A stretch of DNA of 36,244 nucleotides from Thermococcus sp. (GTDB lineage: Archaea; Methanobacteriota_B; Thermococci; Thermococcales; Thermococcaceae): assembly GCF_015521605.1 (NCBI RefSeq), contig NZ_WANV01000021.1:1-36244 (forward strand), in the 5' to 3' direction. Below the pieces are notes generated by a model. The model searched no databases. It was given only the letters and a program-made list of their open reading frames with translations, and was not told the origin of the DNA. Position numbers and translations under genes: made by a program. The number at the start of each line of letters is the position of its first letter. The stretch's first letter is position 1. Positions 528-36,244 of this stretch are shown piece after piece.

Positions 528-635
528 TGGTGCCGGGGCGGGGCTTTGAACCCCGGACCTCTCGGTTTCTCAGGCTCCCCCGAAGGGGAGCGGCCCTATG
601 AGCCGAGCGCTCTGACCAGGCTAAGCTACCCCGGC
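528..635 (-). tRNA. tRNA-Met(CAU), elongator, with 30-nt intron and encoded CCA
   Basis: On the minus strand the acceptor stem is GCCGGGG/CCCCGGC, with discriminator A and an encoded CCA at 530-528. The D stem is GCTT/GAGC, the anticodon stem CTCGG/CCGAG and the T stem CGGGG/CCCCG. The anticodon CAT lies at 600-598. A 30-nt intron (596-567) sits between A37 and A38. The exon-intron junctions fold as a canonical bulge-helix-bulge: CTCA pairs with intron TGAG, with three-base bulges TAG and AAA, and the intron has a GCTCCCC-TTCG-GGGGAGC stem-loop. It would be spliced by the archaeal tRNA endonuclease. The CAU anticodon could also belong to a tRNA-Ile2, but the intron placement fits Thermococcales elongator Met. 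See the C/D sRNA at 11984-12066, whose guide matches the precursor. Confidence 0.93.
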
Positions 636-11983: not shown

Positions 11984-12066
11984 CCCGGACGGGCTCGGCG
12001 CTCATAGGGTACGTCACAACCGCAGAGCGGTTCAGCCCGTCTTGGAATCGTCACTGCCCGTCCGGG
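11984..12066 (-). ncRNA. Box C/D guide sRNA with predicted target C34 of elongator tRNA-Met
   Basis: On the minus strand the order is: stem CCCGGACGGGC (12066-12056), box C GTGACGA (12054-12048), 12-nt guide TTCCAAGACGGG, box D' CTGA (12035-12032), a small hairpin spacer (ACCGC...GCGGT), box C' GTGACGT (12017-12011), 12-nt guide ACCCTATGAGCG, box D CCGA (11998-11995), and the stem partner GCCCGTCCGGG (11994-11984). The 11-bp terminal stem is perfect. The D guide pairs over 10 nt (guide positions 2-11 counted from box D) with the tRNA-Met precursor at 528-635, including three intron bases, and places C34 opposite the fifth position, the rule for 2'-O-methylation. Pyrococcus has an sRNA with this target (sR49, from memory). 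Boxes C and D deviate from consensus together (see findings). Confidence 0.8.
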
Positions 12067-12072
12067 ACGGCG

Positions 12073-12123
12073 TCAGGGCCAGTCCTCGTCATCACGGCGC
12101 TCGGTGCAATTCGCTGTCATCAT
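12073..12123 (-). ncRNA. Box C/D guide sRNA, target not identified
   Basis: Minus-strand order: box C ATGATGA (12123-12117), 12-nt guide CAGCGAATTGCA, box D' CCGA (12104-12101), 5-nt spacer, box C' GTGATGA (12095-12089), 12-nt guide CGAGGACTGGCC and box D CTGA (12076-12073). Both guides have the standard 12-nt length for archaeal dual guides. By the box D plus five rule the predicted methylated bases are the A in GGCCAGTCC and the second A in TGCAATTCG. I could not place either target from memory. It lies 8 nt after the stop of the gene at 12131 and 6 nt ahead of the second sRNA, so both probably come from one precursor. Confidence 0.78.
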
Positions 12124-12130
12124 CCGCGGT

Positions 12131-34627: not shown

Positions 34628-36106
34628 GACAACGCAACCATCGAGCACGAGGTCTGGATCGCCGGCTTTCAATTCTCCTAGAGTCTTATTGCAACCCAGC
34701 ATACGCCCGTCATCAGTCTTAACTTTAAGACTTTCAATTCTCCTAGAGTCTTATTGCAACCGCCACAGTCACACTCGAAATCGAATTAGAACAATCCTTT
34801 CAATTCTCCTAGAGTCTTATTGCAACAACAAGCCGAATTGGAAACTCCAGATAAAGAATGCTAACTTTCAATTCTCCTAGAGTCTTATTGCAACGTTCCT
34901 CAAGCTACAATCAAGCTGACGGACATCAACGTCTTTCAATTCTCCTAGAGTCTTATTGCAACGTACGGGAGGCCGCTATAGAGGCTGCCAGGTTTCTGCT
35001 TTCAATTCTCCTAGAGTCTTATTGCAACCCGCTGGTTCATGAGGTATAAAACCGCCGTTTACCGGCTTTCAATTCTCCTAGAGTCTTATTGCAACTACCG
35101 TCGCCACAGCCGCTACTCGGCAGTGACAGAGCTTTCAATTCTCCTAGAGTCTTATTGCAACCTCATAGTGCCGGAGAGCCATGTCGAGGTACTTTGTCTC
35201 TTTCAATTCTCCTAGAGTCTTATTGCAACGAGGCTGGGGTAGGGTTTGGCTGGAGCGGTCGCGGTCCTTTCAATTCTCCTAGAGTCTTATTGCAACAGCT
35301 GAGGGCCCCGGCAAGAGTCAGGCACCAAGCCCTCTTTCAATTCTCCTAGAGTCTTATTGCAACCACGGCGAATATGTTGATGATGAAGAGGAAGATTGCA
35401 CTTTCAATTCTCCTAGAGTCTTATTGCAACGCCCGAGGAGCTTGAGGACATCGAGGCTTATGAGAAGCTTTCAATTCTCCTAGAGTCTTATTGCAACCTA
35501 CCTTATCGTTGATGATGTAGAGCTTTGTGTAATCATCTTTCAATTCTCCTAGAGTCTTATTGCAACGCGGCCTCGCAGACATAACAATACCTGCAAACTA
35601 TCTTTCAATTCTCCTAGAGTCTTATTGCAACAACCTTGTCCGGAGGCGGTTGCTATGAAGCTTGACATCTTTCAATTCTCCTAGAGTCTTATTGCAACTC
35701 AGGAACCAGCACCCGTTCACCGCTCCCGTGAGGGGTGGGGCTTTCAATTCTCCTAGAGTCTTATTGCAACCCGGCTAAGGATTTGAAGCCCGGCCACCCG
35801 TATGAATCTTTCAATTCTCCTAGAGTCTTATTGCAACGGTGGTGGTGAGATACTTCTACTCAACGCCGTTTCAAATCTTTCAATTCTCCTAGAGTCTTAT
35901 TGCAACCGCCCACCCTCCAGGACGGAAGGGTAACCTTAAACGGCTTTCAATTCTCCTAGAGTCTTATTGCAACTACGCCTGGGAAGACTCCTACCGACGA
36001 TGAGTTGAACTTTCAATTCTCCTAGAGTCTTATTGCAACCGGGAGCTCCGGAAGTTGGGTAGGTTCGAGGCTTATACTTTCAATTCTCCTAGAGTCTTAT
36101 TGCAAC

Positions 36107-36214
36107 TTGACTTCTTCTACATTGTGAACCTCGGTAGGGAGTTCTCTTTCAATTCTCCTAGAGTCTTATTGCAACTTGACTTCTTCTACATTGTGAACCT
36201 CGGTAGGGAGTTCT
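36107..36214. repeat. Duplicated spacer at the leader side
   Basis: The 39-nt spacers at 36107-36145 and 36176-36214 are identical. Both begin TTGACTTCTTCTACATTG and are separated by a normal repeat. Confidence 0.95.
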
Positions 36215-36244
36215 CTTTCAATTCTCCTAGAGTCTTATTGCAAC

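Follow-up and report, generated by a model that had tools for sequence, protein, structure and literature searches.

A box C/D guide RNA of Thermococcus predicted to direct 2′-O-methylation of C34 in the unspliced elongator tRNA-Met precursor

In archaea, box C/D small RNAs (sRNAs) assemble with L7Ae, Nop5 and fibrillarin into a ribonucleoprotein (RNP) in which the nucleotide to be methylated lies opposite the fifth guide base upstream of box D (the N+5 rule), and the link between a guide RNA and its target is usually drawn from one-sided complementarity. The closest described system is sR-tMet, which guides the 2′-O-methylation of C34 (Cm34) of tRNA-Met in haloarchaea and was demonstrated in Haloferax (Joardar et al. 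2011, as cited in PMC4033218 and PMC6601510); in H. volcanii, a guide for Cm34 on the elongator pre-tRNA-Met had been predicted earlier (PMC2584109). A C/D guide to position 34 of tRNA-Met was also predicted for three Pyrococcus species (PMC7994747). The preliminary description of the present locus had named Pyrococcus as its precedent, which holds as far as the prediction goes, while the direct demonstration belongs to Haloferax. The published circular sRNAs of T. kodakarensis include sR42, with a length of 70 nt. Here, a candidate guide of this kind is described from a stretch of 36,244 nucleotides of a Thermococcus contig, called the window.

The guide RNA and its tRNA-Met target

Read 5′ to 3′ on the minus strand (12066-11984), the sRNA has the order CCCGGACGGGC-A-GUGACGA-UUCCAAGACGGG-CUGA-ACCGCUCUGCGGUU-GUGACG-U-ACCCUAUGAGCG-CCGA-GCCCGUCCGGG, i.e., the archaeal box C/D layout of C, D′, C′ and D in succession, two guides of about 10–12 nt and a terminal stem, with a small inner hairpin between D′ and C′ (Table 1). 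The minus-strand C/D sRNA of the preliminary description, with its boxes and stem, was therefore found again in the sequence, the stem being 11 bp long; its boxes are present in order, but C and D are the variants GUGACGA and CCGA rather than RUGAUGA and CUGA. These variants are common to most orthologues. Among the orthologues, base 4 of the box C core UGAUGA and base 2 of box D depart from U/U jointly: C is mostly combined with C, G or A also occurs with C, and U with U is seen on a scaffold resembling sR41. This joint variation amounts to a variant kink-turn and resembles the haloarchaeal sR-tMet consensus.

Table 1. Positions of the guide RNA, its target and other RNA features of the window
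Feature	Position	Strand	Basis
Box C/D sRNA, Thermococcales sR-tMet-like, entire element with 11-bp terminal stem	11984..12066	-	sequence, Rfam RF02163, orthologues
Terminal stem, 5′ arm, CCCGGACGGGC	12056..12066	-	compensatory changes in orthologues (C-G to G-C, stem pairs 1, 2 and 4)
Terminal stem, 3′ arm, GCCCGUCCGGG	11984..11994	-	orthologue comparison, stem pairing
Box C, GUGACGA (RUGAUGA variant)	12048..12054	-	sequence; variants in orthologues
D′ guide, UUCCAAGACGGG	12036..12047	-	match to 23S rRNA UCCGUCUUGGA; predicted Um at U649
Box D′, CUGA	12032..12035	-	sequence
Box C′, GUGACG	12012..12017	-	sequence
D guide, ACCCUAUGAGCG	11999..12010	-	10 contiguous pairs to pre-tRNA-Met; G12003 opposite C34
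Box D, CCGA (CUGA variant)	11995..11998	-	sequence; orthologues
Second box C/D sRNA, a few nt upstream of the first sRNA's stem	12128-12071	-	Rfam sR17 26.3 bits, sR2 25.3 bits, both below cut-off
Elongator tRNA-Met(CAU) gene (target), CCA encoded, C34 at 600	528..635	-	sequence; orthologues
tRNA-Met intron, 30 nt, between positions 37/38; starts GGG, pairs with guide	567..596	-	sequence; orthologues
Paired segment GCUCAUAGGG (exon 603-597, intron 596-594)	594..603	-	duplex and energy computation
H/ACA guide RNA Pab160	23408-23340	-	92.7 bits
CRISPR array, running to the window end	34666-36244		24 or more copies of the Rfam CRISPR-DR6 repeat

Neither ARAGORN nor the Rfam tRNA model reported the tRNA-Met at 635-528, a kind of miss that may occur for tRNAs that bear introns. 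Its cloverleaf and intron are nevertheless plain from the sequence, the precursor is compatible with a bulge-helix-bulge splice site, and the segment that spans the anticodon and the intron start is kept in 54 genomes of the same genus. The duplex GCUCAUAGGG/CCCUAUGAGC comprises 10 bp with the precursor and 7 bp with the mature tRNA-Met, and its computed energy is -19.7 kcal/mol with the former versus -10.4 kcal/mol with the latter. C34 faces G12003, as the N+5 rule has it. The contiguous match of 10 bases, the register and the share of three intron bases in the duplex (7 bp once these are removed) had all been proposed in the preliminary description, and each was recovered here.

These features are most readily explained by an sRNA that very probably guides Cm34 on the unspliced precursor of elongator tRNA-Met. 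Once transcribed, it would assemble with L7Ae, Nop5 and fibrillarin into an RNP, the D guide would pair with the unspliced tRNA over its anticodon loop and intron bases 1–3, and fibrillarin would then methylate C34 on its ribose. With the intron bases included, the duplex would grow from 7 to 10–11 bp and so favour the precursor as the substrate; the longer duplex would separate the elongator pre-tRNA-Met from spliced tRNA-Met and from other tRNAs with a CAU anticodon. Since the 5′ splice site would also lie within the paired region, methylation is expected to take place ahead of splicing.

Guide–intron pairing and the choice of substrate

The 54 introns retrieved from the window's genus all begin GGGC, even the one in G053, which is shortened to 16 nt, and the genus alone can therefore not separate targeting of the precursor from targeting of the mature tRNA; within it, the duplex of guide and precursor is 10–11 bp. 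Four further families of the same class (f2, f3, f4 and f5) were compared. The intron begins AGU in both f2 and f4, where the guide is ACUUAUGAG, AGC in f3, with the guide GCUUAUGAG, and AGCUC in f5, with GAGCUUAUGAG. Over the five families, both parts were in hand for 60 genomes, and intron bases 1–3 form Watson-Crick pairs with the guide in every one of them (60/60), the intron/guide triplets being GGG/CCC, AGU/ACU and AGC/GCU. The pairing run in these genomes is 9–11 bp with the precursor versus 7–9 bp with the mature tRNA. Permutation of the guides among the five families gave full pairing in 4/120 cases, which is the smallest possible value because two of the triplets are each common to two families. 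Intron bases 1–3 also serve the splice-site helix, so that the guide cannot be the sole reason why they are conserved; the guide is the partner that adapts.

This compensatory change in guide and intron argues for the unspliced precursor as the probable substrate: pairing of the triplet in all 60 genomes fits such targeting, and targeting of the mature tRNA does not predict it. The role given to the RNA in the preliminary description, i.e., a Cm34 guide on the unspliced elongator tRNA-Met, is thus supported as the best reading by this pairing and by the match to sR-tMet (see below).

It is improbable, by comparison, that the guide uses the 7-bp exon duplex to act mainly on spliced tRNA-Met, and perhaps also on the initiator tRNA, with the intron match being incidental. 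The seven exon bases do pair in either form, and a survey of P. furiosus reported Cm34 in the initiator tRNA-Met, the text consulted not stating Cm34 for the elongator (PMC7668247). Such a guide would not be expected, however, to follow intron nucleotides 1–3 through all 60 genomes; to pair with the mature tRNA beyond A37, where it usually reads ACC, the guide would have to carry GGU, a triplet found in 0/60, and the duplex with the precursor is the stronger one by about 9 kcal/mol.

Second guide, scaffolds and conservation

The D′ guide matches UCCGUCUUGGA at nt 645-655 of 23S rRNA through 10 Watson-Crick pairs plus a single G-U pair, and it is predicted to direct methylation of a uridine there (Um649). 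The 23S rRNA is that of the complete relative G001, as a search of the assembly of the window's own genome gave no match for this rRNA. The sRNA therefore looks like a joint guide for rRNA and tRNA. A D′ target was also sought inside the Thermococcus tRNA-Met intron, where the longest match was 3 nt. Unlike the dual role predicted here, the tRNA guides of Pyrobaculum are described with a second guide that lacks a target (PMC7994747). The preliminary description had overlooked the match of the D′ guide to 23S rRNA as well as the tandem sRNA directly upstream (12128-12071). The D′ guide of this upstream sRNA matches 23S nt 867-877 over 11 bp and its D guide a region of 16S over 10 bp (both in G001). 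Many relatives have retained the tandem, and the upstream partner differs in others.

The guide RNA was followed by a pattern search that covered 91 genomes, 55 of them from the window's genus. The pattern of box C′, guide and box D had matches in 38 of these 55, and a looser pattern, applied to the remaining 17 with inspection of the sequences, located the guide RNA in 14 more. After removal of chance matches it was present in 52/55, including every genome that is at least 90% complete, and in 3 of the 52 it sits on another scaffold. The two pattern searches did not find it in G006 (53% complete), G026 (75%) and G042 (86%); the pattern matches in G006 and G042 lack the boxes and were set aside as chance, as were the short matches L101, L110, L111, L115-L117, L121-L124, L127 and L154, which are without box C/D context or register. 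On the window's scaffold, UCCAAGACGGG within the D′ guide and CCCUAUGAGC within the D guide are invariant in the 46 sequences inspected, whereas the terminal stem varies with compensation (e.g., GGGC/GCCC to GGCG/CGCC, and CGGGC/GCCCG to CCGGC/GCCGG).

The D guide to tRNA-Met is carried by at least four scaffolds, namely the window type, an sR41-like type, the type of f2, f4 and f5, and that of f3. The sR41-like RNA is present instead of the window type in G031 (L013), G044 (L016) and G016 (L021), all from the window's genus; the D′ guide AUGAAUCCAAU of the f2/f4/f5 scaffold fits 16S rRNA, and that of the f3 type matches the G001 rRNA operon nowhere over 9 or more. This diversity may reflect an exchange or replacement of guides.

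The same observations bear on the view that the main task of the RNA is the one of its D′ guide on 23S rRNA, with the pairing of the D guide to tRNA-Met having a lesser role, or acting as a chaperone to hold up splicing instead of guiding methylation. Its appeal lies in the invariance of the D′ guide in the 46 sequences with the same scaffold, in the good 23S site, and in the 5′ splice site that pairing of the D guide would cover. It is nonetheless a little less probable still than action on spliced tRNA, as the D guide is just as strongly conserved, keeps the correct N+5 register, and occurs on at least four scaffolds with differing D′ guides, which argues that the guide to the anticodon and intron is the selected function. 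As for a random intergenic stretch that resembles tRNA-Met by chance, matches to the 10-mer with one mismatch allowed do occur in the window near the chance rate (four sites vs 2.4 expected), and the window match is weak evidence by itself, but the boxes and stem kept within the genus, together with compensatory changes of guide and intron in three forms across 60 genomes and five families, effectively exclude this reading.

In two sister families, f2 (four genomes from three genera) and f5 (with two genomes), the otherwise divergent tRNA-Met introns (L134-L138, L164) have kept a motif, UUGGAUUCA, which is complementary to the D′ guide of their sRNA over 9–11 bases, the f2 guide being taken from G067 and G077 since the sRNA was not retrieved for G061, G069 and G071. 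Shuffled sequences matched as well in 0–14 of 20,000 trials per intron. The motif is identical to a site in 16S rRNA that this D′ guide also fits, and the two fits are about equal (-13.5 kcal/mol for the intron vs -13.1 for the 16S of G001). In f4, the D′ guide is kept and the intron carries no motif of this type, so that 16S may be the older target. Tentatively, the f2/f5 sRNA could recognise pre-tRNA-Met at two points, with the D guide at the junction of anticodon and intron and the D′ guide at the intron motif; such an rRNA-like anchor might recruit the methylation RNP, delay splicing, or do both.

Relation to known guides

A covariance search, proposed as a check in the preliminary description, picked out exactly this RNA with the sR-tMet model (RF02163, 11991-12059; 32.7 bits, E 2e-4, genome-wide E 2.9e-4), although at a score below the gathering threshold of 50 bits, which the best relative (41.2 bits) does not reach either. 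As in sR-tMet, the D guide spans the anticodon and the intron start of the elongator pre-tRNA-Met, with C34 at N+5. The window RNA thus appears to work like sR-tMet and stays outside RF02163 by score. The sR41 model (RF01126), which is characterised by AUGAUGA/CUGA boxes and a short scaffold, had its only match within the stretch searched at 12071-12127, in the neighbouring sRNA. A Methanopyrus-type origin with C-to-U editing, which UGACGA and CCGA might suggest, was rejected, the relatives being Thermococcus and tRNA position 8 being U.

An archaeal C/D guide for C34 of tRNA-Met was already known, and the window RNA is a further member. No earlier description of the guide–intron covariation or of the intron motif was found in the literature covered, which includes the key Haloferax and Pyrococcus papers only in part. 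The joint change of guide and intron in five archaeal families adds evolutionary evidence for the unspliced precursor as the substrate, and suggests that being read by an RNA modification machine may be what preserves an intron. A single D guide on several scaffolds with differing D′ guides shows how guides may be swapped, and with the f2/f5 motif it becomes possible to test if modification RNPs dock at sites within tRNA introns.

The haloarchaeal sR-tMet, including that of Haloferax, shares with the window RNA a D guide (CCCUAUGAG) aimed at C34 of the elongator pre-tRNA-Met, the target named in the title of Joardar et al. 2011, as well as boxes that vary in a similar way (the Rfam consensus has UGACGA and CCGA). 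It belongs to another archaeal class, and the window RNA scores below the gathering cut-off of this family; UUCCAAGACGGG, the D′ guide to 23S in the window RNA, is unlike the haloarchaeal D′ region, and the terminal stem of the window RNA is longer. The consensus of the Pyrococcus sR41 likewise has a D guide, GAGCCCUAUGAGCG, beside box D, whereas the window RNA differs in its variant boxes, its long GC stem and its D′ guide. The guide encoded in the tRNA-Trp intron of Haloferax and Pyrococcus also directs Cm34 on an intron-containing precursor (PMC7994747), but in that case the guiding RNA is the intron, while at the present locus the guide has a separate gene and the intron supplies target bases only. 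Finally, Cm34 of elongator tRNA-Met is also guided by box C/D RNAs in humans, SNORD97 and SCARNA97 (PMC6601510); they are eukaryotic, and pair with the anticodon loop region without the help of an intron.
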